A stretch of DNA of 29,831 bases from a virus. Under the pieces are notes generated by a model. That model worked only from the letters and a program-made list of their open reading frames with translations, was not told where the DNA came from and did not search any database. Position 1 is the first letter of the stretch; each line of letters opens with the position of its first letter. The DNA lies in IMG/VR virus record IMGVR_UViG_3300020572_000025, positions 1-29,831 of that record; one strand, written 5' to 3'. Of this stretch, positions 818-26,645 are shown piece by piece. A program made the translations under genes and the position numbers.

Positions 818-3800
818 ATGGCTGATAATAAAAATTTAACGGTTTGGCAGAAACTGGGGGTTCTATTTGGACCTGATAAAAAACCTATAATAGGACCAAC
901 CAAATCATATTCAATTGATTCAAAAGAACTATTAAGAACAAAGTCTAAAGAAGAGTTTAGTACTGAGAAATTACAAAAACAACAAAATTTATATTTAAAT
1001 AATCAATGGGAGAAGGTTGATAATACATTGTACCAACAAGCGATGTTTTATGAAACAACTAGAATTTCATCTTATACCGATTTTGAGTCTATGGAATTTT
1101 TCCCAGAGATTTCAGCGGCTTTAGATATTCTAATGGAAGAATCTACAACACAAGATAGTAAGGGTAATATTTTACAAATCCATTCCGAATCTGATAGGGT
1201 TAAAAAAGTTTTAACTGATTTATTTCATAATAGATTAGATATCCATACAACATTACCAATGTGGACAAGGAACGTTTGTAAATATGGCGATAATTTCATA
1301 TATTTAGATATTGATGATGAAAATGGTATTACTAATTGTAAACAATTACCCAATATTGAGATTGAAAGACATGAAGGTGATGTTTATAATTCAATAAATG
1401 GTGTCATTGATATTAACAGAAATAAGAAAAAGGGTGATGATCTAAAATTTGTTTGGAAAAACAGAGAGTTTGAATTTAATTCTTGGCAAATAGGTCATTT
1501 TAGATTACTTGGTGATGATAGAAGATTACCATATGGTACTTCAGTATTAGAAAAAGCTAGAAGGATTTATAAACAATTAATGTTATCTGAAGATGCTATG
1601 TTAATTTATAGAATTACCAGAGCTCCAGAACGAAGAATATTTAAAATATTCGTGGGTAATATTGATGACAAAGATGTTGAACCATATGTACAACAAATTG
1701 CGAATAAATTTAAAAGGTCACCGGTAGTTGATCCTAAGACTGGACAAATTGATTTAAGATATAATCAAATGGCCAATGATCAGGATTTTTTCATCCCGGT
1801 TAGAGATCAAGCAGCGACAAATCCAATTGAAACATTAGCTGGTGCGTGTATATCGTTAGATAGTAGAATTCCATTATTGGATGGTAGAACACTTACATTA
1901 AATGAAATTATTAATGAATGGGATAATGGTAATAGAAATTTATGGGTATACTCTTGTGATCCCAAAACTGGTGAATTTACCCCTGGAATAATTACTTGGG
2001 CTGGTGTTACTAGAAAAAATACTGAAGTAATGAAAATTACATTGGATAACGGTGAAGAGATTACCGCAACGCCTGATCATAAATTTGTTCACAGAACTAA
2101 TGGCTTTGTGGCGGCTAATGAATTAAATGTTGGTGATTCGTTAATGCCTTTTTATAGTAAAAAATCAATTTATTATAAACATTATGATTATCAACAAATA
2201 TTTGATAATAAAACTCAAAAATGGGTTTGGGTACATAAAGAAGTTACTAAGTTCCATAAAAATAATTTAGTGAATGAGACAACATTTTTAGAGGAATATA
2301 AAGACCAAAATCATTCTACTATACATCATATTAATTTTAATAGGTTTGACAATTCACCAACTAATTTAACATTTATGAATAGTAAAGACCACTTTAAATT
2401 ACATTGTAAAAATCAACAAATAGGGAGTAAAGCTTTTTCCGAGAAGTATAAAAATAACCCTAATTTCGCTAAAAGAGTAAGAAAACATTTAAATGAGTGT
2501 AATAAAATATTTCACGATAAAAGAAATTCTGATCCAGAATATAAAGAATTCATTAGAAGTAAACAAAAAGAATCTATTAATAAATTTTTTAATGAATTAT
2601 CGGTAGAAGAATTAAAAAAATGGTGTGAAAGGATTAATAACCCAATAACTAAAGCTAAAACCACAAAAAAATTATTAAAATGGTGTGAGAACCCAGACAA
2701 TTTAAAATTAAAAGGTCAGATAATTAGTACCGTTAAATCAACCCCAGAAGCTAAAGAAAAAATGAGTAAGATGTCTAAAAGTATTTGGGTGAGAGAAGGA
2801 TATAAAGAGTCAGTATTTAGTAAAAAACAAACTTTAATTTTCAATGATAAACTTTACAATATGTTTATTAATGAATTTGAAAAACATTTACGTTCAGATT
2901 TAACTTTACAAGTTTTAAATAGAAGTTCTAACTTTATGTTTGAGTTTAATTCTATTAATAAAGATATTAGGAGTTCATTAACTAATTTAAATACATTCAC
3001 CCATAATCATTTAGAAAAAATGATTAAAGAAAAAGGATTTAAAAATTTTAGGGAGTGGAAAAAAGAGGAAATTATTAAAAGAGGTTTCATCAATTTACGT
3101 CAATGGCAATATTATCTCGATAAAGAGAATGGTAAATATGGTAGTAAAGAAAGGGGTAAGTCAATTAATCAATTCTATAATCATAAAATTGTAAAAATAG
3201 AATATCTAGAACAGAGAATTGATACGGGCACTATCACAGTAGATGGTAATGAAATGTATCATAATCATCACACATTCGCCTTAGAATCAGGTATTTATAT
3301 CAAAAATTCTAATTTGTCTGAAATTGCAGATATTGAATATCTTCAAAAGAAATTATTCGCAGCACTTAGAGTTCCTAAACCATTTTTAGGTTTTGAATCA
3401 GCTGTAGGTGATGGTAAAAATTTAGCATTACAAGACATACGTTTCACAAGAACTGTTAATAGAATTCAACAATCTATGTTACAAGAATTAAATAAAATCG
3501 CTATTATTCATTTATTCATATTGGGGTTAGATGAAGAATTAAGTAATTTTACTTTAACTTTAAATAACCCTTCTACACAAGCAGAAATGTTACGCACAGA
3601 ACAAATGCAGGTGAAGATGCAATTATATAAAGATTCTGTTTCTGATGCCGGTAATGGGTTTGCTGCGATGTCTATGACTAGAGCTAAGAAAGAAATATTA
3701 AACTTTTCTAATGATGAAATACGTCTTGATATTGAACAACAAAGACTTGAAAAAGCAGCCGCAGCTGAATTAGCTAATACATCCGCGGTAATTAAAAAGA

Positions 3801-4228
3801 CTGGTTTATTTGATAAGATAGATAACATTTATGGTGATACTACTGGTGAAGCTGTCACTGAAGGTGGTGGTGATGTAACACCTCCAGCTGGTGGGCCTGA
3901 AATGGGTGGTGAAGAAATGGGTGGTGCACCTCCAGAACCAACAACACCAGAAACAACAGAACCAACACCGCCTACAATGGAGTCTGGGGTTAAAAATTTA
4001 GATAAGTTATTATTAGAAAGAAAAGAATTTTTAATGAAATCGTATGATAGTAAACAAAAAAAACATAAGGCTAATTATATTAACAAATTGATTGAAAGTA
4101 TTGAAATACGAGAAGAATACAAGGTAAATATTAATGAGAGTAAAAATAATGTTTCGGATAGTAACAATAGACACAATAATGATATAACAAATATGGTTGA
4201 TAATATTAATAATTTATTAAATAAATAA
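818..4228 (+). CDS. Portal vertex protein (T4 gp20-like) interrupted by an intein
   Basis: The portal ring forms the DNA entry vertex of the head and anchors the packaging motor and neck. The host protein is split: residues 1-343 and 831-1136 are gp20-like, including YTDFESMEFFPEISAALDIL near the N-terminus, RRLPYGTSVLEKARRIYKQL mid-protein, and SNLSEIADIEYLQKKLFAAL just after the insert. Residues 344-830 are an intein (separate entry). The spliced product would be about 649 aa, longer than T4 gp20 (524 aa). The excess includes a Pro/Thr/Glu/Gly-rich linker near precursor residues 1020-1053 and a basic, Asn-rich C-terminus. It is followed by the same block of genes that leads to protease, scaffold and capsid, as in T4. 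The leader is A-rich with no Shine-Dalgarno sequence. Identification is from recognised motifs and gene order. Confidence 0.92.
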   Translation: MADNKNLTVWQKLGVLFGPDKKPIIGPTKSYSIDSKELLRTKSKEEFSTEKLQKQQNLYLNNQWEKVDNTLYQQAMFYETTRISSYTDFESMEFFPEISAALDILMEESTTQDSKGNILQIHSESDRVKKVLTDLFHNRLDIHTTLPMWTRNVCKYGDNFIYLDIDDENGITNCKQLPNIEIERHEGDVYNSINGVIDINRNKKKGDDLKFVWKNREFEFNSWQIGHFRLLGDDRRLPYGTSVLEKARRIYKQLMLSEDAMLIYRITRAPERRIFKIFVGNIDDKDVEPYVQQIANKFKRSPVVDPKTGQIDLRYNQMANDQDFFIPVRDQAATNPIETLAGACISLDSRIPLLDGRTLTLNEIINEWDNGNRNLWVYSCDPKTGEFTPGIITWAGVTRKNTEVMKITLDNGEEITATPDHKFVHRTNGFVAANELNVGDSLMPFYSKKSIYYKHYDYQQIFDNKTQKWVWVHKEVTKFHKNNLVNETTFLEEYKDQNHSTIHHINFNRFDNSPTNLTFMNSKDHFKLHCKNQQIGSKAFSEKYKNNPNFAKRVRKHLNECNKIFHDKRNSDPEYKEFIRSKQKESINKFFNELSVEELKKWCERINNPITKAKTTKKLLKWCENPDNLKLKGQIISTVKSTPEAKEKMSKMSKSIWVREGYKESVFSKKQTLIFNDKLYNMFINEFEKHLRSDLTLQVLNRSSNFMFEFNSINKDIRSSLTNLNTFTHNHLEKMIKEKGFKNFREWKKEEIIKRGFINLRQWQYYLDKENGKYGSKERGKSINQFYNHKIVKIEYLEQRIDTGTITVDGNEMYHNHHTFALESGIYIKNSNLSEIADIEYLQKKLFAALRVPKPFLGFESAVGDGKNLALQDIRFTRTVNRIQQSMLQELNKIAIIHLFILGLDEELSNFTLTLNNPSTQAEMLRTEQMQVKMQLYKDSVSDAGNGFAAMSMTRAKKEILNFSNDEIRLDIEQQRLEKAAAAELANTSAVIKKTGLFDKIDNIYGDTTGEAVTEGGGDVTPPAGGPEMGGEEMGGAPPEPTTPETTEPTPPTMESGVKNLDKLLLERKEFLMKSYDSKQKKHKANYINKLIESIEIREEYKVNINESKNNVSDSNNRHNNDITNMVDNINNLLNK
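1847..3307 (+). mobile_element. Intein with HNH homing endonuclease inside the portal gene
   Basis: The intein covers portal precursor residues 344-830 (487 aa). It starts at Cys344 (CISLDSRIPLLDGRTLTLNE), has a block B motif TATPDHKF with the expected Thr418 and His421, and ends DGNEMYHNHHTFALESGIYIKN before Ser831 as the +1 nucleophile. The middle holds an HNH nuclease signature, IHHINFNRFDNSPTNLTF then KDHFKLH, with His503/His504, Asn516 and His525. Basic helical segments follow, including SKSTPEAKEKM-like sequence (TPEAKEKMSKMSKSIW) resembling NUMOD3 DNA-binding repeats. The penultimate residue is Lys829 where His is usual. Removal joins GA to SNLSEI, restoring a gp20-like sequence. Splicing and homing are inferred from the motifs. 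Confidence 0.9.
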
Positions 4229-4267: not shown

Positions 4268-5041
4268 ATGCACAATTTCGGTAACATAAAAAATACATTC
4301 AATAAAGTCCTATCTGAATCCATTATACAAAAGGATAGAGGTAGAAAAACTATCTTTAAAGAGTACTTAAAAACATTAAGAGAGAGTACAATTTTAAAAT
4401 CTCAATTCATTGTTTTAACTAATATTGAATCTAAATTTATTGAAGATCCATATTTAGCTGGAGAATATGTTAAAGAAAATATTGATTCTCTAAGAAAATT
4501 TGGTCAAAAAAAGATTCTTATAGAAAACTCTAAATTGATTAGTTTAGTTGAAAAAAATAAATTAACTCTTTCCACTGATGTTAACAAATTATATGAATCT
4601 TTAAATGATTTAATCATTTTAAAAAGAGATAGTAAAAATATTGATAGAATACAAGAATCTTTTGAATATGTTCGTACATTTGTTATGAAACCAAAGATAA
4701 ATGAAAGTTCTACAACGCCTACCATATCATTACCCCCTAGTATCCTTACAAGTTTAATGACTTCTAAATTTAACGCTAAGTATGAGAATGTATCTGAATC
4801 AGAAAAAAAAGTTATTAGAGTATCATTAAATGGTGATGATAAAGAAAAAGAATCTTTATTTACTGAAATGATCCGTGAAACCATAGACATCCTTAATGTT
4901 AAATTAGAAACTAGTAATGTAGATTTAAAAGATAAATTATTAAAAACAAAAGATAAGTTACTTAGAACAGAATATAAAAGTGAAACGTTTACGAAAGATA
5001 TTACTAAAATATTTTCACTTAAAGATGATTTAACTAAATAA
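4268..5041 (+). CDS. Unknown head-operon protein (257 aa)
   Basis: A highly charged, mostly helical protein, rich in Lys, Glu, Leu and Ser, with no signal peptide or membrane segment. The N-terminal half contains an Ile/Lys/Glu-rich region (RKTIFKEYLKTLRESTILKS). A short Thr/Pro/Ser linker near residues 147-158 (SSTTPTISLPPS) divides it from a second helical half ending in repeated KDKLLKTKDKLLR-type heptads. It lies where T4 has the small head genes 67 and 68, but is far larger and I see no similarity that justifies those names. Its TAA stop overlaps the ATG of the holin-like gene by one base (TAATG), suggesting coupled translation. A core or internal head protein is a guess from position. 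Confidence 0.75.
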   Translation: MHNFGNIKNTFNKVLSESIIQKDRGRKTIFKEYLKTLRESTILKSQFIVLTNIESKFIEDPYLAGEYVKENIDSLRKFGQKKILIENSKLISLVEKNKLTLSTDVNKLYESLNDLIILKRDSKNIDRIQESFEYVRTFVMKPKINESSTTPTISLPPSILTSLMTSKFNAKYENVSESEKKVIRVSLNGDDKEKESLFTEMIRETIDILNVKLETSNVDLKDKLLKTKDKLLRTEYKSETFTKDITKIFSLKDDLTK

Positions 5042-5562
5042 TGAAAAATTTCTTCAATTACATTGTTACTAATTTTGGGTTTACAAATAGTTCTGACTTC
5101 ATTTGTTCCTTCTTACATATCAATTTATTGACAATAACATTACCATTAACCGGAATCTCAGTGGGATTAGAAAAATATTTTGGGTTAGGGTATCTAACTA
5201 TCATATCATTTGGTTTATTAATTTTCTTAGAATTAGTGACTGGATTACTATCCTCAAAGGTGAGAAAAGTAAAAATTGAATCCAAAAAATTTAGTAGGTT
5301 TGGTTTAAAAGTATTAATATGGTTTTCACTAATATTCATAACAAAATCATTAATGATGGAATATAAACAATATACTGATACCGCTGGAGTATTAGCTTAT
5401 TCAATGTTTAATTGGTTACATACATTCATATTCATTTATATTAATATGGAATATCTAATATCAGTACTTGAAAACTTAGGTGTTATTACTGGTAATAAGA
5501 AAGGTAGTGATACTTTAATAAAAGTTATTAAAGATAAATTAATTTCTTTTTTAAAAAAATAG
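5041..5562 (+). CDS. Phage holin-like membrane protein (holin_4 / toxin-secretion family)
   Basis: Four hydrophobic segments are visible near residues 25-45, 50-70, 88-108 and 120-142, with a short basic tail. Segment two ends ELVTGLLSSKVRKVKIESKK, like the D/E-x-x-TG...A followed by a basic loop in the holin_4 family. The C-terminal part has MEYLISVLENLGVITG, resembling that family's E-x-x-S-I-x-E-N-x-G ending. Length (173 aa) is typical to slightly long. Holins of this type permeabilise the inner membrane so the lysin reaches the cell wall. The gene overlaps its upstream neighbour by one base and sits between portal and prohead protease, an unusual place for lysis. No endolysin is in the window, so a membrane role in head assembly is an alternative. 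Confidence 0.65.
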   Translation: MKNFFNYIVTNFGFTNSSDFICSFLHINLLTITLPLTGISVGLEKYFGLGYLTIISFGLLIFLELVTGLLSSKVRKVKIESKKFSRFGLKVLIWFSLIFITKSLMMEYKQYTDTAGVLAYSMFNWLHTFIFIYINMEYLISVLENLGVITGNKKGSDTLIKVIKDKLISFLKK

Positions 5563-5614
5563 TATTATTCCTTCCACCCTATTGTTATCTCATTTTATTT
5601 TTACTATATTTTAG

Positions 5615-5622
5615 TATAAATA
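5615..5622 (+). promoter_or_regulatory. TATAAATA late-promoter-like box
   Basis: An exact TATAAATA lies 26 nt upstream of the ATG at 5649, in the 86-nt gap after the holin-like gene. It is identical to the T4 late -10 consensus. A nine-codon open frame from 5636 (MKHFNEKR then TAA) lies between the box and the gene. Confidence 0.4.
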
Positions 5623-5648
5623 ACAAGATTACATTATGAAACACTTTA

Positions 5649-6080
5649 ATGAAAAGAGGTAAGGAAATAACCATTGAATCAAATTCTAACTATACAGTTT
5701 ATTCTGGTACTATAGATAATAAAAAGGCTAAAACCATTTATCTTAACATATCTTCTTGGGGGAATCCAATAAAAGAAACTGGATTGAACTATGAGAGAAT
5801 AATTAAAAATTTACGTAAAAGTGTATTACAATACACATACAACATACTTTGTGAAAGTAATTTTAAGGAAGGAAACACTATTGTTGATTTAGATATGAGA
5901 TCATCCGGAGTTCATTACGGTAAAAAAAGTTTTATGTCTTGTGAGTTAACTCTATTCCAAAAAGAATATAATCAAGTTAATTCAGATATAGTAGTAGAAT
6001 CAATGAAAGATATTTCAAAATCTATTATAGAGAATGTATTAGATACAAACGAATACTTTATATTCAGTAAAACAAAATAA
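5649..6080 (+). CDS. Unknown protein (143 aa) upstream of the prohead protease
   Basis: The sequence looks like a compact alpha/beta protein: an N-terminal beta-rich part (NYTVYSGTIDNKKAKTIYLN), a central helix (NYERIIKNLRKSVLQYTYN), a strand region (GNTIVDLDMRSSGVHYGKKS) and a C-terminal helix. There is no signal peptide or membrane segment. I do not recognise a family. The start at 5649 is used because the nearer upstream ATG at 5636 is in another frame and stops after eight residues. It sits between the holin-like gene and the protease within the head block. Its own upstream TATAAATA box suggests late expression. Confidence 0.75.
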   Translation: MKRGKEITIESNSNYTVYSGTIDNKKAKTIYLNISSWGNPIKETGLNYERIIKNLRKSVLQYTYNILCESNFKEGNTIVDLDMRSSGVHYGKKSFMSCELTLFQKEYNQVNSDIVVESMKDISKSIIENVLDTNEYFIFSKTK

Positions 6081-6103
6081 ATATTTTTTTCTTTAATTCC
6101 TCA

Positions 6104-6112
6104 ATATTTATA
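6104..6112 (+). promoter_or_regulatory. ATATTTATA late-promoter-like element
   Basis: ATATTTATA ends 14 nt before the protease ATG at 6127. Between them lies GAAAGGA, one of the few Shine-Dalgarno-like strings before a start in this window. Confidence 0.4.
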
Positions 6113-6126
6113 TTGAAAGGATTAAT

Positions 6127-6810
6127 ATGATTAAAATATTGAAACCAGGTGAGATTGGTCATGGTGTACTAATTGAAACCGATTCAGGATATATTTCACC
6201 AAAAGATAATCAAAAATTCATAAACGAAATTAAAAAACTTGATTCCGGACAAAGAATTATTGAAGAACCATTAATACTTTACGCTGTATTACAAAAGTGT
6301 GGTGTAGAGAATAAAAATGGTCGTATATACCCAAGAGAAATTCTTGAAAGAGAAGCGAGGAATTATCAAAAAGTTATTCAAGAAGGTAGAGCTCTTGGTG
6401 AAGCCGATCACCCAGAGTCTTCTATTATATCAGTTGATAGAGTATCTCATAATATAACTGAGATATGGTGGGAAGGTAATACCTTATTAGGTAAACTAGA
6501 AGTCCTAATGTCACCAGGGTTTGTTAATCAAGGAATTATTTCATGTAAAGGTGATCAAGTAGCCAATCTAATTAGAAAGGGTATTATGATTGGTGTATCA
6601 TCAAGGGGTGTAGGTTCTTTAGATAAGAAGGAGGGTAAAAATTATGTACAAGAAGATTTTGAATTAATTTGTTGGGATGTTGTTACATCACCTTCAACAC
6701 CGGGTTCTTGGATATTTAATAGAAAAGAAGAATCAGCTCCATTTGTGGAATCAACACAAAGTAAAAAACCATTAATAATAGACACATTAGATAATTATTT
6801 AAACGACTAA
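6127..6810 (+). CDS. Prohead core protease (T4 gp21-like)
   Basis: This is the maturation protease that sits in the prohead core and, after assembly, cleaves scaffold and capsid proteins before DNA packaging. The family signature is clear: CGVENKNGRIYPREILERE near residues 58-76, the catalytic His95 in LGEADHPESS, and the catalytic Ser158 or Ser159 in IMIGVSSRGVGS, followed by ELICWDVVTSPSTPGSW near residues 179-195. The 227-aa length is close to T4 gp21 (212 aa). It is followed closely by a small gene, then the scaffold and capsid, which are its expected substrates. Expression is probably late, from the element at 6104. I am confident in the family; the third catalytic residue, perhaps Asp184, is less certain. 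Confidence 0.93.
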   Translation: MIKILKPGEIGHGVLIETDSGYISPKDNQKFINEIKKLDSGQRIIEEPLILYAVLQKCGVENKNGRIYPREILEREARNYQKVIQEGRALGEADHPESSIISVDRVSHNITEIWWEGNTLLGKLEVLMSPGFVNQGIISCKGDQVANLIRKGIMIGVSSRGVGSLDKKEGKNYVQEDFELICWDVVTSPSTPGSWIFNRKEESAPFVESTQSKKPLIIDTLDNYLND

Positions 6811-8468: not shown

Positions 8469-10283
8469 ATGGGACATCTTTTAAATTCAGGCGAGGTTGG
8501 TAACATAGGGTTAGAACACCTTAAACAAATCCGCGTAAAAACAATCAATAAATGGGACGAATTAGGCTTCTTAAAAGGTCTTAAAGGTCACGTTAGAGAA
8601 AACATCGCTCAGTTATATGAGAATCAAGCTTCTCACTTATTAAATGAGTCTACAACTGCAGGTGACGCATCAGGTTCTTTTGAAACTGTTGTATTTCCAA
8701 TCGTAAGACGTGTATTCTCTAAATTATTAGCAAATGATATCGTTTCAGTTCAAGCGATGAATATGCCAATCGGTAAATTATTCTTCTTCGTACCAGTTAC
8801 GTCTGACAGAAATAACTCTGGTGAATGGCAAGACATCCCTACAAGCTCAACGGCTCAAGGTGCTACATCTAAAAACCCGATCATTAGTGGTCAATTACCT
8901 GAGTGTGTAACAGGATTTAACTGTTCAGTTGCAACTTTCTCAGTATGTGCTAAGTCATTATATGACCGATTTTATAATGATGGTTTATTCGATCATTCTA
9001 AAGGTACAGCAACAATTAACATTGCAACTGGTACTCCGGTAGTATGGACAGCTTGTACAACTGGTAGTGAATTTACTCCTGGTACTACAGCAACTGCTTT
9101 TGATAGTTCAGTTAGAAAACAAATTCTTGAAGTTGAAGGTTTCAACGGTGCTAATGCTGGAAGAATGGGTAACAATTCACCTGGTTCTGATTCTCCTAAC
9201 GGAAACGAAATGGATTCTGAAGAATTTTTAGCTTCTTTATCTGTAGTAGCAGCTACTGCTATTTATGATAATGATGGTAAAATGGTTCTTAACTCTGGTG
9301 ATGAAGTTCCATTCCGTGTGGTAACTCAAAAATACGGTAAAGGTATCGTAGCATATAACGACATTTGTGATGCTGTAGGTAAATTATACATTGAGGTTGA
9401 TTTAACTCACCCTGCTTGTGTATCTTGTGGTACAAACACAATTGATGGTTATACTGGTGCTGAATCTGGTTGGACAGCGTCTACTGATTCATTCGTAGTT
9501 GGATGGAGACAATACAGTTCATTAGAACTTTCTACTGAAATGGGTGAGGTTTCTTTCCGTTTAGATGAGGTTGTAGTTTCTGTAACTGAAAGAAAGTTAA
9601 GAGCTAGCTGGTCTCCAGAATTAGCACAAGACGTTTCAGCGTTCCATAACATTGATGCTGAAGCTGAATTAACAGCTTTATTATCTGAGCAAGTTGCTGC
9701 TGAAATTGATCGTGAGATTTTACGTGATTTACGTAAAGGTGCTGCTTGGCAATTACGTTGGGATTATAATGGTTGGAAACGTGTTGCAACTGTTGCGACT
9801 CCATATACTCAAAAAGAATGGAATCAAACATTAATCACTAAATTAAATCAATTATCTGCTCAGATTCACAAATCTACTTTAAGAGGTGGTGCTAACTTTA
9901 TCGTTGTATCTTCTGAAGTATCTGCGATTTTTGATGATTTAGAATATTTCCACGTATCTAATGCTAATCCTGAACAAGATCAGTATAACATGGGTATTGA
10001 GAGAATTGGTAGTTTAGGTGGTCGTTACACAGTGTATCGTGATCCTTATGCTCCAGCTAACTCAATCATCATTGGTCACAAAGGTAAATCATTGTTAGAC
10101 ACTGGTTATATCTACGCACCATATGTACCATTACAATTAACTCCAACGATGTATAATCCATTTAACTTCGCGCCAGTGAAGGGTATTATGACTCGTTACG
10201 CTAAGAAAATGGTAAATAACCGTTTCTACGGACATGTTAGAGTTGACGGTATCCAAACATTTGATACAAGAGAATTACGATAG
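8469..10283 (+). CDS. Major capsid protein (T4 gp23-like)
   Basis: The shell-forming protein of the head. The N-terminal region matches gp23-like capsids: KWDELGFLKGLKG, then ENIAQLYENQASHLLNE, then FPIVRRVFSKLLANDIVSVQ and PIGKLFFF. The prohead protease cleavage consensus L-x-E is met at Leu58-Asn59-Glu60 before Ser61, so maturation would remove about 60 residues. The C-terminal part has GGRYTVYRDPYAP, IIIGHKGKSLLDTGYIYAPY and FAPVKGIMTRYAKKMVNNRF, typical of the family. At 604 aa it exceeds T4 gp23 (521 aa), the extra being mostly a Gly/Ser/Thr-rich insertion near residues 180-255. The leader is A-rich without a Shine-Dalgarno sequence, and a strong terminator follows. Its more regular codon use than its neighbours fits very high expression. 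Confidence 0.95.
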   Translation: MGHLLNSGEVGNIGLEHLKQIRVKTINKWDELGFLKGLKGHVRENIAQLYENQASHLLNESTTAGDASGSFETVVFPIVRRVFSKLLANDIVSVQAMNMPIGKLFFFVPVTSDRNNSGEWQDIPTSSTAQGATSKNPIISGQLPECVTGFNCSVATFSVCAKSLYDRFYNDGLFDHSKGTATINIATGTPVVWTACTTGSEFTPGTTATAFDSSVRKQILEVEGFNGANAGRMGNNSPGSDSPNGNEMDSEEFLASLSVVAATAIYDNDGKMVLNSGDEVPFRVVTQKYGKGIVAYNDICDAVGKLYIEVDLTHPACVSCGTNTIDGYTGAESGWTASTDSFVVGWRQYSSLELSTEMGEVSFRLDEVVVSVTERKLRASWSPELAQDVSAFHNIDAEAELTALLSEQVAAEIDREILRDLRKGAAWQLRWDYNGWKRVATVATPYTQKEWNQTLITKLNQLSAQIHKSTLRGGANFIVVSSEVSAIFDDLEYFHVSNANPEQDQYNMGIERIGSLGGRYTVYRDPYAPANSIIIGHKGKSLLDTGYIYAPYVPLQLTPTMYNPFNFAPVKGIMTRYAKKMVNNRFYGHVRVDGIQTFDTRELR

Positions 10284-15860: not shown

Positions 15861-16592
15861 TTATAATAAACCTTTTTCTAATCTATCGTTTTTTATGAAT
15901 TTATATAACTCTTTATATTTTTTCATAGCTATTCTGATATCTTTCGTATTCAATAATGTATATTCCCGGATATGTGATAAAATACGATTTTTATTGAATT
16001 TAGAACTACCTGAGATGTTATCATCCAGTATGTTTTCCCAACTATTCAATAATTCAAGTAAGGCTTCCCCCACTTTTATCTCATTTTCAGACATCTTCTT
16101 ATCACCATTAATCCTACCTCTAATTTTATTAGATATTTCCTTAAAAAATTCCTCAATACTACCATTAGGGTTATCTATAGTATAACTATAACTTTCATTC
16201 TCATCTATATTAGTATGTAAATCTTCATAGGATGAAAATTGTCGAATATCTTTATCATACTTAATAATTTTACCTAATAAATAGTTTTTAACGATAGTTC
16301 CATAGTAAGAATAAGCTTTCTTATTCTCACCTGGATCAAATTTATCGAATTTAGTCATTAAGAAAGATAAGGTATCACTATGTAAATCCTCAAAAGACAT
16401 ATCTTTTGAATATAATTTATATCTTCTGATAATACTTTCAATCATCGTATTTAATGGTTTCCTTAAATAGGAATCATAAATCTTTGATTTTTTAACCTGA
16501 TCTGTTTCTTCTATGAATTTAACTACCGCTTTTTCTTGTTCAACACCAAAATATGGAGTTCCAGAAGATACTTTTTTTTGGGGTTCTAACAT
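15861..16592 (-). CDS. Late-transcription sigma factor (T4 gp55-like)
   Basis: A phage sigma factor would redirect host RNA polymerase to late promoters. A sigma region 2-like core is visible: Ile/Arg-rich helix (MIESIIRRYKLYSKDMSFED, residues 50-69), then LHSDTLSFLMTKFDKFDP, then KKAYSYYGTIVKNYLLGKII (91-110) followed by KYDKDIRQFSSYEDL. This last part parallels the [20 protein letters not shown] region of T4 gp55. There is no clear region 4, as in gp55, which relies on coactivators. At 243 aa it is longer than T4 gp55 (185 aa) by its C-terminal part, which contains a Lys/Glu helix and a NKNRILSHIREYTL segment that may be DNA-binding. It sits just upstream of a TATAAATA-headed late block. 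Family is fairly sure; promoter specificity is inferred. Confidence 0.78.
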   Translation of the reverse strand: MLEPQKKVSSGTPYFGVEQEKAVVKFIEETDQVKKSKIYDSYLRKPLNTMIESIIRRYKLYSKDMSFEDLHSDTLSFLMTKFDKFDPGENKKAYSYYGTIVKNYLLGKIIKYDKDIRQFSSYEDLHTNIDENESYSYTIDNPNGSIEEFFKEISNKIRGRINGDKKMSENEIKVGEALLELLNSWENILDDNISGSSKFNKNRILSHIREYTLLNTKDIRIAMKKYKELYKFIKNDRLEKGLL

Positions 16593-16601
16593 CTTTCACC
16601 A

Positions 16602-17393
16602 TTAAATTAGGGGACTATATGTTATGTTTCTATCTTGATTAAAGAAATATTCTTTTTTGGCTAAATTCATCCAAAATCTGGCTTCATCTGGGTTAATAAA
16701 ATCTTTATAACCTTTAAATAATGAACCATCTCTTTGGTTAGTATGTTTATAACCTAATTTAGGAATAACCATAGTGCCACAACTATTATGTGTCATTCTT
16801 AATAAGAATTCATAAATAAAACTTAATTTCATTGAAGCTTTATAACCACCACATTCTTTATATTTTTCTGTTTTAATAACCATACCACTAGTATTGAAAT
16901 TAGGGTAAGCTTGAATTGTATTCTCATCTAAGAAACCAATTTCTTCAGAGAAATCTTTAGCCCAAACCGGTTCATTGGTGAAGGATAAGAAATTACCATT
17001 AGGATCTGTCTCAACAACTAACGGTAAGAAAAGATCATTATTAGGATAAGCTCCAATGTATTCTTGGACATTCTTAAACCAAATTTTAGAATATTCATCA
17101 TCAGCTTCTAAAACACTGAAAAATTCAGTATCAATATTTTCAACACCAAAATTAACTTGTGATGCGAAATCTTCTTTACCAGTTGTATTTTCAACAACTT
17201 TAACCATATCTTTAATAGTTCCAAAATCAATAGATTCTATTTGAGTTTTTAACTCTTCATTTGGTGTTCTAACAATTAATACCATGTCAGGTTTTACAAC
17301 CTGATTTTCTACACTCTTAATTGCGTTTTTTAACCAATTAACCAAATTATTTTCGGTTGTATGGATTGGGATTATTACACTTACTTTACTCAT
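16602..17393 (-). CDS. Family 2 (GT-A) glycosyltransferase
   Basis: The N-terminus is a classic GT2 start (SKVSVIIPIHTTENNLVNWL) with a nucleotide-sugar binding fold. The metal-binding region is FFSVLEADDEY (residues 92-101), and later ETDPNGN, KYKECGGYKASM and ELL-like acceptor-side segments follow the GT-A layout. The protein is 263 aa, a single catalytic domain with no membrane segment. The sugar donor and acceptor cannot be read from sequence. It is separated by one base from the upstream GT-B gene and lies 9 bases before the sigma factor gene, so it may be transcribed with it. It is the last gene of the long glycosyltransferase block. Confidence 0.85.
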   Translation of the reverse strand: MSKVSVIIPIHTTENNLVNWLKNAIKSVENQVVKPDMVLIVRTPNEELKTQIESIDFGTIKDMVKVVENTTGKEDFASQVNFGVENIDTEFFSVLEADDEYSKIWFKNVQEYIGAYPNNDLFLPLVVETDPNGNFLSFTNEPVWAKDFSEEIGFLDENTIQAYPNFNTSGMVIKTEKYKECGGYKASMKLSFIYEFLLRMTHNSCGTMVIPKLGYKHTNQRDGSLFKGYKDFINPDEARFWMNLAKKEYFFNQDRNITYSPLI

Positions 17394-17394
17394 C

Positions 17395-18489
17395 TTAGTT
17401 TACGTTTGTTACATTATTATTTGTCATTAATGAAATTAGTTCCATTTTTCTTTTTTGAATTAAATTACCATAGGTGGCTTCAATACCTTTAACTTGTTCT
17501 TCAGTTGTATATTTACCTTCAATAGAAGCGTCAATTTTTTCATACAATTCAGCTGGGATATTATCTTCTAACCATAATCTAATATATGTTGCGATTAGGT
17601 CTGAAATCTTTAAGAAGTCATTTGTCCAAATACCATTATCTTTAATAACTAAATTATTTTCACCATCATTTTCTTCCATCCATTCTGGTAACATATTAGG
17701 TATTTTACCAATAACTGGTACACCACATTTCATAGATTCAATTGGGAAAGTACCAAATGAAGAAATATCGTCAACCCATACAGAAACACAAGATTCTGAT
17801 AATGTCTTAGCGAAATTCTTTTTAGGGATTCCTCTTAAATCTCTAAATGTAACCCATTTAAATAAAGGATTTTTTAAGTAAAAAGTTTTAACAATTTTTA
17901 ACATATCCTCTTGTTTACGAGTACTAATCGCAACAATTGGTTTTTGTGGTTTACTTGATTTAGCGAAATATTCTGGGATACTCACCGGGACTACATCAAT
18001 ATTCATTGATGGGAATAAAGACGCGATATATGATTTTTGTTTTTCAGTTGTAGTAATAACATCTGTAATACCATAATCACTCCAACTAGAACCTAAGTTA
18101 AGTATTTCTAAAATATAGTCATAACATTGTGACAATACAATTCGTTTACAAGGCATCTTAGATGTTTGTTCCATCATATTAGCGAAAATTTCTGGTATGA
18201 TTAAAAAATCAGCTGGTGAAACTTTTAATTCTTGTGATTCAATTGAGATGTGTGGTAATGACGCGTATTCTTCACCTAACCAAGTACCTACACTTGAATA
18301 TTCATTTTTTTCATGTAAGATATAAGATTTATATCCTAAATCATTTAATACTTTAGCGTGTTCATAAACATTCGCTACCCATCCAACTGGATTATTTTTT
18401 GTGTCCATTACAAAAAAGTAAAAACCGAAGTTTTTATCGTCTAACTTTTTTAAGTTTTCTTGTGCTTGTTGATTTACTGTGTTTTCCAT
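17395..18489 (-). CDS. GT-B glycosyltransferase (GT4-like)
   Basis: Two Rossmann halves are visible. The first (residues about 20-170) includes NPVGWVANVYEHAKVLNDLG and the strand-rich VDVVPVSIPEYF region. The second carries PIVAISTRKQEDMLKIV and the donor-binding motif SSFGTFPIESMKCGVPVIG near residues 243-261, with Glu251 in the usual E-x7-E position. At 364 aa it is a normal size for the fold. No signal peptide or membrane segment is present, so it is probably cytoplasmic. It lies next to a GT2 gene downstream and two small genes upstream. Donor and acceptor are unknown. Confidence 0.8.
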   Translation of the reverse strand: MENTVNQQAQENLKKLDDKNFGFYFFVMDTKNNPVGWVANVYEHAKVLNDLGYKSYILHEKNEYSSVGTWLGEEYASLPHISIESQELKVSPADFLIIPEIFANMMEQTSKMPCKRIVLSQCYDYILEILNLGSSWSDYGITDVITTTEKQKSYIASLFPSMNIDVVPVSIPEYFAKSSKPQKPIVAISTRKQEDMLKIVKTFYLKNPLFKWVTFRDLRGIPKKNFAKTLSESCVSVWVDDISSFGTFPIESMKCGVPVIGKIPNMLPEWMEENDGENNLVIKDNGIWTNDFLKISDLIATYIRLWLEDNIPAELYEKIDASIEGKYTTEEQVKGIEATYGNLIQKRKMELISLMTNNNVTNVN

Positions 18490-18509
18490 ATTATTATTTA
18501 TTTTTATTA

Positions 18510-18920
18510 TTATTCTTCTTCTTGTAATATATCGTATTTTAATAATGTATTAAAAGCGATTTTAAATGGTATTGTTGTGTTATTATTTAAACCCGCTAAT
18601 CCTAACTTATCATCAATTTCAGTGTGAGTATTCATAATAGTTTCAATCATCATCCTTAACACTTCCCATTTAGAAATGTCCACTTGGATACTTGAACCCG
18701 TGTCTGGTAAGAATAACATATCCTCACCCATTAGTATTTCTGGTTCTACAACCTTTTTACTTTTACTCTTTTTTACAGGAACCGGTGGTGGTAAGACTTC
18801 CATCATAGGTATCTCATTTTCGATTGGATCAATTCTAATCACTTCAATAATTGAAGCCATATTGACGTAAAATACATTACCACCAAACTCTAAATATGGT
18901 TTATCTTTCTTTCTATTCAT
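18510..18920 (-). CDS. Unknown protein (136 aa)
   Basis: The protein has a beta-like N-terminus (KPYLEFGGNVFYVNMASIIE), a Pro/Lys-rich linker (LPPPVPVKKSKSKK), then a helical C-terminal half (KWEVLRMMIETIMNTHTEID) and an acidic end. It looks like two parts joined by a flexible hinge. The start overlaps the end of the upstream gene by 8 bases. No family was recognised, and the neighbours (HAD-like protein, glycosyltransferase) do not fix a role. Confidence 0.65.
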   Translation of the reverse strand: MNRKKDKPYLEFGGNVFYVNMASIIEVIRIDPIENEIPMMEVLPPPVPVKKSKSKKVVEPEILMGEDMLFLPDTGSSIQVDISKWEVLRMMIETIMNTHTEIDDKLGLAGLNNNTTIPFKIAFNTLLKYDILQEEE

Positions 18921-19512
18921 CTATATCGGTATATTCTATTGTTATACTTGTTGTTAATTTTTCAATAAGATTTTGATCAATAATATCTTTAATTTTTTCA
19001 ATACTATAATCAGATTTAATTTCAGTATTATATTGACAATCCACTTTAATACTTACTTTATCATTTGGTTTTGAATTTAATACACTTGGGTTGGCTGTAA
19101 TAATGATATCACTTTCAGACCACATATCACTTGGTTTTGAAACAAATCTAATACGATCTACTTTACAACCAGTTTTACTTAAGAAAAATAGTGTGGCTGG
19201 TTTACTATTACCCATTTCAACGCTAACGATTTCTAATTTATGACCTAAGTCTTTAATGGTATCATTTAAATTATTTAAATGAGAAATGGTATTAACTCTT
19301 AATTCATCCGCGTGACCAAATATTTCTAAAGACGCTTCATCATATAAAAAACTTTCTATTGTTTCACCATCTTCTTCAAAAATAAAATAACGTTCTAATT
19401 CTAAACTATCTATTGGTTCAATAGGATCTAGTTCTGTATATTTAGTATACGTTTTTTTAAGTTTATTTAAGAAATCCCTTAAGACTTCATTTATATCTAC
19501 TGAAATTGTCAT
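18913..19512 (-). CDS. Degenerate HAD-like protein (possible 5'-nucleotidase relative)
   Basis: The N-terminus MTISVDINEVLRDFLNKL resembles the first HAD motif (hhhDxD) of 5'(3')-deoxyribonucleotidases, but the second Asp is replaced by Asn7 (D-I-N). Further on, EIVSVEMGNSKPATLFFLSK (residues 94-113) sits where motifs II and III would lie, and WSESDIIITANPSVLNSKPN (131-150) resembles motif IV with the usual DD reduced to one Asp. A long acidic helical insert fills residues 30-90. If this reading is right the protein has the fold but probably not normal phosphatase chemistry. It overlaps the next gene by 8 bases and follows phoH. This is a tentative call; it may be an unrelated alpha/beta protein. 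Confidence 0.45.
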   Translation of the reverse strand: MTISVDINEVLRDFLNKLKKTYTKYTELDPIEPIDSLELERYFIFEEDGETIESFLYDEASLEIFGHADELRVNTISHLNNLNDTIKDLGHKLEIVSVEMGNSKPATLFFLSKTGCKVDRIRFVSKPSDMWSESDIIITANPSVLNSKPNDKVSIKVDCQYNTEIKSDYSIEKIKDIIDQNLIEKLTTSITIEYTDIDE

Positions 19513-19555
19513 AAATAATTTTATGAAATAATCTGTTATTGTAAATGGTAAATAA

Positions 19556-20329
19556 TTATTTTTTTACATTATTATTTTTAACTTCTTCTAATCCGTCAAA
19601 AATATCTTCTATAATTTTAATAATTGGGTTTCTAACGATATCTTCAGCGTTTCTAAGTTCTACAACACCAAAACCTTTCTTACCATTAAACTTTTCAATA
19701 ACAACTTCTAACGAACTCTCTCTTTTATTCTTAATGTCTTTTTGTTTAACATCACCAAGAATAATCATTTTAGAATTTTCACCAATCCTTGTCATTAATG
19801 TTCTCATATTATCTAAACTAATATTTTGAGCTTCATCAATAATGATAATTGAATTATCAATACTTCTACCCCTAACATAAGCTATAGGTTTTATTTGGAT
19901 AAACCCCATTTCTCTTAATCTATTAGTTATAGGTTCACCAATAATTTTATTAAAATTATCTAAGAATGAATCCATAAATGGTTCCATCTTCTCATCCATT
20001 GTACCTTTTAAAAAACCTATATCTTCATCTTTAAGTGTGGTTACAGATTTAACCAAAATTATTTTTTTAAAGTTAAGATCAGGATTTTTTAATAACTTTA
20101 AAGCTTCCGCACAAGCTAAAAATGTTTTACCAGTCCCAGGAAACCCAGAAGCTATAATAATTTCATTCTTATTAATCGCGTCAACTAATTTTTTTTGATT
20201 TTCGGTTTTTGGTATTACATTTATTTTAATACCATTAAATGGATTAGTGAAATTTAATCTTCTATTAGATTTATATTCTTCCACATCATCGTGATTATCT
20301 TGAGTTAATTTCTTAGTTTTTCTAGTCAT
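19556..20329 (-). CDS. phoH: PhoH-like P-loop ATPase
   Basis: Walker A is GFPGTGKT (residues 62-69) and Walker B with the family extension is IIIIDEAQN (161-169), just after the PhoH signature YVRGRSIDNS. The sequence ILVKSVTTL and GDVKQKD match sensor regions of PhoH and RecD-like helicases. At 257 aa it is the usual size for phage PhoH, with a basic N-terminal lead. PhoH-like genes are common in T4-like and other large phages and are often linked to phosphate stress, though their phage role is unresolved; RNA or ribonuclease functions have been suggested for bacterial versions. It sits between a CgeB-like glycosyltransferase gene and the HAD-like gene, on the same strand. Confidence 0.9.
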   Translation of the reverse strand: MTRKTKKLTQDNHDDVEEYKSNRRLNFTNPFNGIKINVIPKTENQKKLVDAINKNEIIIASGFPGTGKTFLACAEALKLLKNPDLNFKKIILVKSVTTLKDEDIGFLKGTMDEKMEPFMDSFLDNFNKIIGEPITNRLREMGFIQIKPIAYVRGRSIDNSIIIIDEAQNISLDNMRTLMTRIGENSKMIILGDVKQKDIKNKRESSLEVVIEKFNGKKGFGVVELRNAEDIVRNPIIKIIEDIFDGLEEVKNNNVKK

Positions 20330-20337
20330 ATTTATTT

Positions 20338-21201
20338 TTAGTAGGTTTTAATTATTTCTAAAAGAGTTTTAGATCTTTCAAAGTATGTATGGTTTTGATT
20401 TGATCTATTATAACCCGCCAACTCTATTTTTTTTCTTTCGGTTTCATTATTTAAATAATATTTAACTTTTTCATCTAAATCATTAAAATTTTCATAGACA
20501 ACAATTTCTTCACCTATTTTAAATAATTTTTCTAATCCTAGTGTGTAATTTGTTAAAAGTAATGTTTTACATCCAGTTGTCTCAAAAGTCCTATAATTAA
20601 TATCATTAGATATGTTTCTATTGAAATGTATTTTATATGAATTAATTGATTTAACCATATCATCACCAATAACAAATAAATCTTTTTTAATACCAAATTT
20701 ATCTAAATGGTGTACATAATTACTTCTATTTAAAAGATTACCACAAAATCCGATATCAATAGTTTTATCTATTTCCATAGGAAAAATTAGATCGTCTGGA
20801 TACGCATTAGGAAACCAATAAGATTTTTTAACTAGATTATTAAAATAAGGTATATACGATTCAGTAGAATTTAACAATATATTAATATCTAACATCGTAC
20901 AAAGTTTTTGGTGTTGGGATAATACACAATGACTATCTATACTCCAATATATTTTTAATTTTTTACTCTCTCTTATTTCTTTTACTGGTAACCATTCTGG
21001 TGTATAATTCTCAATAACAAAAATAACATCCGCCCATTCTTCTATTTCTGTGAATGGGGTGGAGAAGTTTGGGTAATTTAAACCCCAAACAATTGCTTCA
21101 ACACCATCATTTTTTAATAACGCTCTTTGTAGATTTAAAGATTCGCGATAATTTTTATTCGCTTCGTGTCTACCACACTCTTGTATTATAACTATTTTCA
21201 T
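20338..21201 (-). CDS. CgeB-like GT-B glycosyltransferase
   Basis: The C-terminal third matches the Glyco_trans_1_2 / CgeB layout: NISNDINYRTFETTGCKTLL (near residues 196-215), then TLGLEKLFKIGEEIVVYENF, then NDLDEKVKYYLNNETERKKI and a final NHTYFERSKTLLEI. The N-terminal half has MKIVIIQECGRHEANKNYRE and NYPNFSTPFTEIEEWADVIF strands. The frame is open back to an ATG at 21225, but the ATG at 21201 overlaps the upstream stop as ATGA, the pattern used elsewhere here, and gives the usual family start. It is 287 aa with that start. It follows a methyltransferase gene, suggesting both act on one glycan. Donor and acceptor are unknown. Confidence 0.8.
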   Translation of the reverse strand: MKIVIIQECGRHEANKNYRESLNLQRALLKNDGVEAIVWGLNYPNFSTPFTEIEEWADVIFVIENYTPEWLPVKEIRESKKLKIYWSIDSHCVLSQHQKLCTMLDINILLNSTESYIPYFNNLVKKSYWFPNAYPDDLIFPMEIDKTIDIGFCGNLLNRSNYVHHLDKFGIKKDLFVIGDDMVKSINSYKIHFNRNISNDINYRTFETTGCKTLLLTNYTLGLEKLFKIGEEIVVYENFNDLDEKVKYYLNNETERKKIELAGYNRSNQNHTYFERSKTLLEIIKTY

Positions 21202-21731
21202 ATTATCCAATATCCTGTTTTCCAATCTTTATGACCATCTTGTTGAAAAATTTCACATTTTTTTTCATTTAAAAGTACATCACTTAACGGCCAATTTTCT
21301 AAGTTAACTGTACCTTGTTTATAGTTATCAATAATTAATATTCCACCATCTTTTAATGATTCTATTGATTGTTTTGTACATTCATCTCTCCATTCAACTG
21401 GTTCTCCATCAATGATTATACAATCAAATTTTTCTTCTGAGGTGAATTTTGATGGATACGATATAAATTCATTCTTATCCGTTGTAAAGTGTGACGTACA
21501 TTTATTAGCCCAATCGCGATTAGTATCAATAGAAATTACCTCTCTAACATTTTGCCTCCACCAAAAAGTAGAGTCTCCACATCCATATTCAAAAACTTTC
21601 CAGTTCTTAATATCCCAACTACATAATTTTTCTAAAAATGGTCTTGTATACCAAGGAAAAATTGAATTAGTTCTTGGGTCTACCATCCTACCACCCACTA
21701 ATGGTTTTATTTTATTAAAATCTATTTCCAT
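21198..21731 (-). CDS. Class I SAM-dependent methyltransferase
   Basis: The SAM-binding motif is VFEYGCGDSTFWW (residues 46-58), followed by the motif II acidic residue in REVISIDTNRDW, then KFDCIIIDGEPVEW (101-114) and LKDGGILIIDNYKQG (126-140). At 177 aa the protein is a compact single domain. The substrate is not shown; the CgeB-like glycosyltransferase gene directly downstream (ATGA overlap) suggests sugar O-methylation. DNA-methylase motifs such as DPPY are absent. It is separated from the other methyltransferase gene by 71 bases. Confidence 0.75.
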   Translation of the reverse strand: MEIDFNKIKPLVGGRMVDPRTNSIFPWYTRPFLEKLCSWDIKNWKVFEYGCGDSTFWWRQNVREVISIDTNRDWANKCTSHFTTDKNEFISYPSKFTSEEKFDCIIIDGEPVEWRDECTKQSIESLKDGGILIIDNYKQGTVNLENWPLSDVLLNEKKCEIFQQDGHKDWKTGYWII

Positions 21732-21802
21732 TATCTATTAATTATTTGTTTAGTGAATTTTGACTTTTTAATTCAATGATAAAAATAAGAATGATAGAAC
21801 CC

Positions 21803-22297
21803 TCATTCATTATTTAAATGATTAAAAAGTTCAATGTTATTAGTCCATAATGTAGTCCAATTTTTATGGGTTTTAAAATCAATTTTCTTATAATCATTAC
21901 TAGTTCTAACTCTATTCCATCCATAACCACCTTCTTCAGTATCATGTGCAATAATAACTGGACAATTTTTATCCATCATAAAATTAATACATTCTGGTCT
22001 AGAATCTCCGTGCCCATCAACAAATGAAAAATCTATTTTTTCTGGATAAGATAGTTCTAAAAATTTTTTTGGACCAATACTACAAAAGTATGTCCAATTT
22101 TTGTTTTCATTAAATTTAATAACAACTTGATTAAACCATTGTTCAGATTGCATTTCAATTGACATTAATTGTTCTGAATTTTTGATTAAAAAATCTGTTG
22201 AATAGTTTCCAGTACCAAACTCCACTGAGTTTTTTGGTTTTCCAATAAAATTAATAATTTTATCTAAGTGTTCTAAATGTGTTGAATATAAATCCAT
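21803..22297 (-). CDS. Class I methyltransferase-like protein (164 aa)
   Basis: A glycine motif KNSVEFGTGNYSTDFLI (residues 22-38) begins the SAM fold. SIEMQSEQW marks the acidic end of strand two, and KIDFSFVDGHGDSRPECINF (87-106) is strand four, followed by CPVIIAHDTEEGG. The pattern resembles that of the neighbouring 177-aa methyltransferase, and the two may be distant relatives. It starts one base after the upstream glycosyltransferase stop, so translation is probably coupled. The stretch from 21732 to 21802 after it holds no gene and only a weak hairpin (TGAATT/AATTCA). Confidence 0.65.
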   Translation of the reverse strand: MDLYSTHLEHLDKIINFIGKPKNSVEFGTGNYSTDFLIKNSEQLMSIEMQSEQWFNQVVIKFNENKNWTYFCSIGPKKFLELSYPEKIDFSFVDGHGDSRPECINFMMDKNCPVIIAHDTEEGGYGWNRVRTSNDYKKIDFKTHKNWTTLWTNNIELFNHLNNE

Positions 22298-22298
22298 T

Positions 22299-22991
22299 TT
22301 ATTTTAGTAATTTTTCTATTTCTTTTTTATTTTTTTGGTACGGCCTTAATAAATGTGAATCTATATAAAAACCAGAATTTAATTTATTAATATCGTAAAC
22401 CCATTTACCTCTATCAATTCTTCTTGAAAAATCTCTTGTCTTTATTATAAGATTTTCTTTGAATAATTGAAGTCTATCGTACATAAAATTTTCATCAACA
22501 TTCCATTTTTCACCATAAATAGAAAATAACATTTTACAATATTCTTCAAATGACATATTTTCAATGTTTAAATATTTTTTAAAGTTTGATGAGTGTGATA
22601 AAACATAACACATTGGGTAATATGGTACATCACCATATGGTTGACCAGAATATAATATCATATTAGTTTCAGTCAATTCTTTTAAATGTTCATTAAAATA
22701 ATTAGCATTTAAAGGTAACATATCAATATCTGAAGTTAGTAAGTTACCATCAATAAAATTAGCCACAAATAATCTAACTACTTGTGATTGGAATCCTGTA
22801 GATACAAAATTTAATGATTTAATTTTATGGATAATCCCACGCTCAGTTTCAATGATTTCATCTTTATCTGTCACATTAATATAATAAGTTTTAAAACCTA
22901 AATCAAACCATTTTTTACTAACTATCTCATAAAAATCTTTATATAGTGGATTATCGTCAGATGAGATAATTACATAATCAATTTTTTTCAT
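22299..22991 (-). CDS. GT-A glycosyltransferase-like protein
   Basis: The protein begins KKIDYVIISSDDNPLYKDFY and carries a DxD motif in GNLLTSDIDMLPL (residues 82-94), preceded by GFQSQVVRLFVANFI, a layout typical of GT-A enzymes. Later, DVPYYPMCYVLSHSSNF and the acidic KWNVDENFMYDRL could be the acceptor side and second metal contact. At 230 aa it is small but complete. Its ATG overlaps the FkbM gene's stop by one base (TAATG). Donor and acceptor are unknown. Confidence 0.7.
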   Translation of the reverse strand: MKKIDYVIISSDDNPLYKDFYEIVSKKWFDLGFKTYYINVTDKDEIIETERGIIHKIKSLNFVSTGFQSQVVRLFVANFIDGNLLTSDIDMLPLNANYFNEHLKELTETNMILYSGQPYGDVPYYPMCYVLSHSSNFKKYLNIENMSFEEYCKMLFSIYGEKWNVDENFMYDRLQLFKENLIIKTRDFSRRIDRGKWVYDINKLNSGFYIDSHLLRPYQKNKKEIEKLLK

Positions 22992-23599
22992 TATTTATCA
23001 AAATTTTTATTTATCCAAACTTCATTGATTCCTATTTCTGAATCAAATTCAAATCCATTTAGTGATAAAATTTTTCTACACTCTTCATCTTTTGTTGGAT
23101 TATATTTATCCATCTCTATTAAAACTATGTGTACTGGTATTTTCCAATCAAATGTTTTTAGTACTTCTAACTCCCCACCTTCAACATCTATAGAAAATAG
23201 ATCTACTTTTTTAATATTTAAATTTTCTAAAATTTTATTCATAGGTTTTGATTCTACCACATAACTAGGCGTTTTATCTAACCCCCAACCTTTAATATGT
23301 TTTTCGTGCATAGAATTTTTAATACCACCCAAAGCACCATTACCTAAAAATTCAATATTACCTTCAGTTTCAGATACAGCGTAATTAAAATTATAACATT
23401 TTGGTCTATTTCTAATTAATTGACTGAATTGTGATGTCGGTTCAATAATTACGCCACCCCAATTTAAATGTCTTTCAAAAAATAAAGTATTTGAATATGT
23501 TATTCCATCCATACCACCTAATTCAATAAAAAAACCATTATGGTAATTTAAATACTTTTCGTATAATATTTTGTCTTCTTGTTGTTGACTATAAAACAT
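22991..23599 (-). CDS. FkbM-family methyltransferase
   Basis: FkbM enzymes O-methylate sugars or polyketides. The family signature is strong: a start MFYSQQQEDKILYEKYL, the SAM motif FFIELGGMDGITYSNTLFFE (residues 23-42), WGGVIIEPTSQ, NYAVSETEGNIEF, and VDLFSIDVEGGELEVLKTFD (132-151). A longer frame reaches an ATG at 23629, but that overlaps the upstream gene by 19 bases and adds ten non-family residues, so 23599 is preferred (11-base gap). It is 202 aa. Its place between two glycosyltransferase genes suggests that it methylates the glycan they make. Confidence 0.88.
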   Translation of the reverse strand: MFYSQQQEDKILYEKYLNYHNGFFIELGGMDGITYSNTLFFERHLNWGGVIIEPTSQFSQLIRNRPKCYNFNYAVSETEGNIEFLGNGALGGIKNSMHEKHIKGWGLDKTPSYVVESKPMNKILENLNIKKVDLFSIDVEGGELEVLKTFDWKIPVHIVLIEMDKYNPTKDEECRKILSLNGFEFDSEIGINEVWINKNFDK

Positions 23600-23610
23600 A
23601 GTTATTATTT

Positions 23611-26488: not shown

Positions 26489-26645
26489 TCGTTTTTGATA
26501 TATTAAAAATTTTTAAAAATGTTTCCGGTTTTAATTCTTTTTGTTTACTAAAAAATAGTATAGCTTCTTCCTCATTATCACAAGTATAATAACTTATAAC
26601 TTCTTTTTCAAGATTATTTTTAAAATAAAAAAAATATTTTTCCAT
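26469..26645 (-). CDS. Small unknown protein (58 aa)
   Basis: This short gene fills what would otherwise be an unexplained 156-base gap between the dUTPase and the two-domain glycosyltransferase. It begins MEKYFFYFKNNLEKEVISYY and continues TCDNEEEAILFFSKQKELKP before stopping at a TAG 20 bases inside the next gene. Its ATG overlaps the dUTPase stop by one base (TAATG), the same coupling used elsewhere here, which supports it as a real gene. The sequence is mixed strand and helix; no family was recognised. Confidence 0.65.
   Translation of the reverse strand: MEKYFFYFKNNLEKEVISYYTCDNEEEAILFFSKQKELKPETFLKIFNISKTNDYNSL

Follow-up and report, generated by a model that had tools for sequence, protein, structure and literature searches.

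Cyanobacterial DnaE split inteins have no His before their terminal Asn, Ser or Ala being found instead, and they retain the block F His together with an Asp at F:4. The penultimate His is a common feature of class 1 inteins, neither obligatory nor defining. In mycobacteriophage inteins, Gly, Lys and Ser have been described at this position (Kelley et al., PMC5050341); the G316H change in the RDF intein (Bethlehem gp51), which introduces a His there, turned complete splicing into a reaction that takes more than 5 h to reach about half, and the block F His is able to replace the missing penultimate one (PMC5050341). Portal inteins of cluster C1 mycobacteriophages are listed alongside the Bethlehem intein in the same work (PMC5050341). 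The AceL NrdHF intein is without both the G:6 and the F:13 His, yet it splices within minutes (PMC7891396), and inteins have been found to tolerate changes at the penultimate residue (PMC7664689, PMC4031507). A literature search provided no clear precedent for a T4-like gp20 intein and no paper on portal genes carrying several inteins.

The stretch of viral DNA analysed here (the window, 29,831 nucleotides) contains a portal gene interrupted by an in-frame intein, whose components are the following.

818..4228, plus strand: gp20-type portal gene with in-frame intein, a single ORF of 1136 codons plus stop (PF07230, PHROG 213)
818..1846, plus strand: N-extein, 343 aa, with C-terminal NPIETLAGA; the last residue aligns to Ala353 of T4 gp20
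1847..3307, plus strand: intein, 487 aa, class 1 by sequence (Cys1 to Asn487), from profiles, alignment and AF2/Foldseek
1847..1849, plus strand: Cys1, block A nucleophile, invariant in a 23-sequence alignment (A2)
2069..2080, plus strand: block B T75-P-D-H78 (TxxH; TATPDH), with T75, P76, D77 and H78 invariant in A2
2159..3166, plus strand: putative homing endonuclease region within the splicing domain, missing or shortened in L007, L100, L102 and L103
2324..2404, plus strand: HNH motif, H160-H161 ... N169/N173 ... H182 ... H186 (PHROG 7545, E=2e-7)
3221..3277, plus strand: block F, DTGTITVDGNEMYHNHHTF, with Thr462 at F:4 and H475 (HTF) as the F:13 His; T460-G467 and H475-F477 invariant in A2
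3287..3307, plus strand: block G, SGIYIKN, with Lys486 at 3302-3304 and Asn487 at 3305-3307, from the sequence
3308..3310, plus strand: Ser+1, C-extein nucleophile, Ser in 43/43 intein alleles
3308..4225, plus strand: C-extein, 306 aa, with N-terminal SNLSEIADIEYL

The ORF matches Pfam Portal_T4 (PF07230, E=3e-63) and the PHROG 213 portal family (E=2.5e-55), in both cases in two separate stretches, and genes for a gp21-type protease (6127-6810) and a gp23-type major capsid protein (8469-10283) are located downstream; profile and head-gene context both identify the host protein as a T4-type portal gp20. The predicted spliced product is of 343+306 = 649 aa. Contigs from three further metagenome samples (L001 and L002, which have the full length, and L003, which is truncated) contain the same sequence at 100% identity; since it recurs in this way, the interrupted portal is not an assembly artefact. 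A preliminary description of this DNA had placed an HNH intein at 1847-3307 in the portal gene, and this is correct to the base; its Cys1, TxxH block, GIYIKN ending with Lys, Ser+1 and spliced length of 649 residues are likewise all in the sequence.

When searched alone, the intein matches Pfam Intein_splicing (PF14890) with 41.4 bits (cut-off 35.8) and, at its N-terminus (CISLDSRIPLLDG), TIGR01445 intein_Nterm with 43.1 bits (cut-off 24.5). In the endonuclease region the HNH stretch reads IHHINFNRFDNSPTNL...DHFKLH; H160/H161, N169/N173, H182 and H186 are invariant in a five-sequence alignment (A1), and a Pfam HNH_3 match is below cut-off. The last three codons of the intein, ATC-AAA-AAT (I-K-N), end at 3307, so that Lys486 occupies the place of the penultimate His; the latter was also sought elsewhere in block G and is not there. 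The preliminary description had overlooked the presence of the block F His, H475, and the Thr at F:4. The register of block F was set by hhalign, in which T462 pairs with the Cys that the site-b (VYC) family described below has at F:4; F:4 is Thr here instead of the common Asp, and this residue is invariant across the family of inteins at the same site. The AF2 model has a pLDDT of about 90 in the splicing domain and a pTM of only 0.52, the endonuclease domain being poorly placed; Foldseek with this model revealed a HINT fold, with RecA, DnaB and DnaE inteins matched at E about 1e-6 to 1e-5. Cys1, TxxH, Asn487, Ser+1, the F:13 His and the modelled HINT fold together assign the element to class 1. 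A class 3 assignment was rejected for it, given the presence of Cys1 and the alignment of F:4 to Thr462. Along its whole length the intein also aligns to NCBIfam NF052663, an intein-containing RtcB-related family (E=6.6e-30, far below the cut-off of that family), which is another intein family whose blocks are similar.

Among inteins of solved structure the best sequence match is NrdJ-1 (PDB 8ubs), which resides in another host protein and aligns over only about 100 residues. The DnaE split inteins (Npu DnaE, 4kl5 and 2keq; Ssp DnaE, 1zd7) share class 1 and the HINT fold by sequence and Foldseek; unlike the window intein, they are split and without endonuclease. The mycobacteriophage inteins (PMC5050341) resemble it in being phage-borne, of class 1 and deprived of the His at G:6, with Lys in some cases; host lineage and sequence differ, and in the window element the loss of His is fixed in one site-specific family, which has Thr at F:4.

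Alignment also established that the gp20 sequence is truly interrupted: 52 relatives have no intein and read through the site without a break, with the junction TL[AP]GA followed by xNLDQIADIEYLQ, the flanks being joined directly as PIDTL[AP]GA-x-NLDQIADIEYLQ. The insertion point corresponds to the codon pair 353/354 of T4 gp20 (alignment to PDB 3ja7 and 6uzc). In T4 gp20 residues 350-359 form the channel loop, which connects the clip with stem helix 7 and constricts the channel to about 28 angstroms; when T4 and SPP1 are compared, this loop proves highly conserved (PMC4493910). By analogy, a portal with 487 residues left in this loop should not assemble into a working ring; since the unspliced insert would be incompatible with a working portal, splicing is expected to be required.

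Scanning viral contigs with the intein alignment recovered numerous further copies inserted at this very position (site c). For site c, 26 distinct full inteins were obtained; they make up 22 clusters with less than 90% identity, and every one has Cys1 and Ser+1. Their penultimate residue is Lys in 22, Phe in three and Ser in one; when all 43 distinct site-c C-termini are considered, it is K in 37, F in 3 and S, Y and Q in one each, with H in none. Cys1, T75-P-D-H78, the block F stretch TGTITVDG, H475-T-F and Asn487 are invariant in the 23 sequences of A2. The penultimate Lys is thus a stable trait of the whole family and not an isolated oddity. Some site-c alleles are shortened, the endonuclease being mostly or wholly lost (L007, 290 aa; L103, 213 aa; L100, 156 aa; L102, 148 aa), and the mini-inteins of 148-213 aa retain the residues of blocks A, F and G; shortened alleles with intact ends fit selection for splicing alone. 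Between the window and L068, the exteins have a dN/dS of 0.07 and the endonuclease one of 0.13; with 0.09 and 0.045 in its two halves, the splicing domain evolves under purifying selection.

These data bear on whether the element could be a decaying, splicing-dead intein, with the portal inactivated or left cleaved. The non-consensus residues at G:6 and F:4 would agree with such a decay. However, dN/dS is low, the catalytic residues are invariant across 22 clusters, the mini-inteins have intact ends, the identical sequence occurs in independent samples and the host gene is essential. Moreover, Ser is found at +1 in 43/43 intein alleles vs 26/52 empty ones (Fisher p=3.5e-9, relatedness ignored). 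Taken together, these observations make a dead intein extremely improbable.

Ordinary class 1 splicing by the standard route, with His475 assisting Asn cyclisation, is very probably the correct reading. The intein would have entered the portal gene between the codons that match 353 and 354 of T4 gp20, within the channel loop; Cys1 would undergo the N-S shift, aided by T75 and H78 of block B, the chain would then be transferred to Ser+1, Asn487 would cyclise, most likely with the assistance of the invariant block F His475 (HTF), and an acyl shift would complete the reaction. Lys486 would be tolerated or mildly helpful, and catalytically non-essential, because some inteins of the family have Phe, Ser, Tyr or Gln in its place. 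The HNH domain would carry the element into empty alleles. This chemistry and its efficiency are what we infer, the role of His475 being assigned from its position and from precedent. The Thr at F:4 counts against this explanation, as it indicates that the N-terminal activation network also departs from that of textbook inteins.

Lys486 might instead act as a catalytic helper, as a general acid/base or by stabilising charge, during a modified form of Asn cyclisation that leaves another role to the block F His. The occurrence of Lys in 37 of the 43 C-termini suggests selection, and a KN ending is found also in portal inteins of L064 and, at site f, of L087 and L171; however, Phe takes its place in three lineages and Ser, Tyr or Gln in others, with the other catalytic residues kept, so that such a function for Lys486 is unlikely.

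The preliminary description had proposed that Lys makes splicing slow or dependent on a variant route, and that this could time head assembly. According to this proposal Lys would lower the rate of Asn cyclisation, splicing being slow or conditional, and would time portal maturation and head assembly or couple them to the state of the cell. The portal does nucleate head assembly, its precursor would be expected to form no working ring because of the channel-loop insert, and in other inteins the identity of the penultimate residue alters the rate (PMC5050341). The effect of this residue, however, can be the opposite of the one proposed, since published phage inteins without the His splice fast and restoring it in the RDF intein slowed splicing (PMC5050341), and AceL NrdHF splices in minutes with neither assisting His (PMC7891396). 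In the family itself, Lys is the rule and His is never found at the C-terminus, the block F His is invariant, and some alleles of this site have F, S, Y or Q in place of Lys; the analysis revealed no regulatory feature. As to timing, site c is empty in 52 portal relatives and interrupted in 6 (a sample that is not random), and the intein-less relatives manage without any such timer, which argues against a general timing role. Slow or conditional splicing is accordingly judged very unlikely. Thus, of the preliminary reading the intein, its non-His residue and its mobility stand, while slow splicing and the timing of head assembly are not supported. A false lead is thereby removed, as a missing penultimate His is already documented in phage inteins and does not mean slow splicing. 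The occurrence of K, F, S, Y and Q at one site, with HN endings at neighbouring sites, provides natural variants to probe the penultimate residue.

The mobility of the element, proposed as homing into an essential and conserved portal segment, agrees with what is seen in two relatives, L081 and L083 (both at 5001-6347). Their inteins are near-identical from about intein nucleotide 180 to the end, with an endonuclease dS of 0.006, and their portals and flanks are diverged at dS about 0.9-1.2; the pattern indicates a recent transfer or conversion of the intein between diverged portals. The join falls inside the N-terminal part of the intein, suggesting recombination between two intein alleles. 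Conversely, divergence between the window and L068 is even over intein and exteins, which agrees with vertical descent, and across 276 pairs intein and extein identity are correlated with r=0.65. No cellular relatives were found in 84,980 bacterial and archaeal genomes scanned with the family alignment; among named phages, relatives of the intein are limited to 8 records, none of which reaches 60% identity or 50% coverage.

In this phage group the T4-like portal gene is a hotspot for inteins: at least six insertion sites occur in the related portals, and a single gene may hold up to four of these elements; a few junctions (reference 240/241 and 318/320) were placed by eye. The sites are as follows.

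Site a, after reference residue 108: HN, then C
Site b, after reference residue 153: Pro1, Cys+1
Site c, that of the window: Cys1, Thr at F:4, non-His penultimate residue, Ser+1
Site d, after reference residue 241: HN, then S
Site e, after reference residue 254: HN, then C
Site f, after about reference residue 318: Pro1, Cys at F:4, Thr+1

Sites a, d and e therefore have the penultimate His, which is absent at b, c and f. L163 has four inteins in a single portal ORF of 1712 aa, and the portals of L004, L087, L088, L100 and L154 have three each. A distant portal of an uncultured huge phage (L064:1027-5187; LR756508.1) has three inteins at other positions, one of them with LTLKN before Ser. In L060 (3983-6000) the portal is found in two overlapping frames, split near residue 260, which looks like a frameshift or a sequencing error.

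Inteins at sites a, d and e share the host gene with the window intein and differ in insertion site and in having the penultimate His. Those at sites b and f share with it the HNH domain and homology over the full length, and they are without the A1 nucleophile. The site-b family, which is abundant, has Pro1 in 38/38 clusters and Cys at F:4 (VYC) in 37/38, together with the F:13 His, S, A, G, M or K as penultimate residue, and Cys+1; examples are L004:5309-6592, L100:4989-5489 and 36 further clusters, and site f is represented in L087 and L171. The query of the site-b scan reached 11 residues into the N-extein, and one of its six patterns included Pro1; the invariance of Pro1 was not created by the query, because many matches (MWTRNT, MWIRNL and FWTRNL junctions) are outside the Pro1 pattern. 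The b/f family has neither Trp at B:12 nor Thr at G:5; it is class-3-like but lacks two residues, W and T, of the WCT signature. In published class 3 sets the T and W positions deviate in only 4.6% and 6.1% (PMC7891396).

The site-b and window families are homologous over their whole length, endonuclease included (hhalign E=3e-55). In the tree, site c forms one clade and b plus f another; both group with the KN-ending L064 intein (95/92), and the three are apart from the HN-ending site a inteins, with long branches and an uncertain deeper order. A tentative interpretation, which we regard as possible though somewhat less than probable, is that the c, b, f and L064 inteins form one HNH clade in which the penultimate His was lost once and the nucleophile moved, being Cys1 with Thr at F:4 in c and Pro1 with Cys at F:4 in b and f; the Pro1 inteins would then be a class 3 lineage of separate, non-WCT origin. 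If true, the mechanism based on a block F nucleophile would have arisen separately in the same gene that hosts its class 1 sisters. The Pro1/block-F Cys family, at odds with the class 3 signature of the literature, is a more surprising lead than the window intein itself; more broadly, a single gene of the phage head accommodates at least six sites for inteins.

In the remaining part of the window, several glycosyltransferase-like genes (16602-28505, minus strand) form a block that adjoins the head genes on the opposite strand, with matches to Pfam Glycos_transf_2, Glyco_trans_1_2 and Glyco_tranf_2_5 and to PHROG glycosyltransferases. An ORF at 15861-16592, minus strand, has a weak match to sigma-70 region 2 (E=8.5e-5, below cut-off), and its product is possibly a phage late sigma factor.
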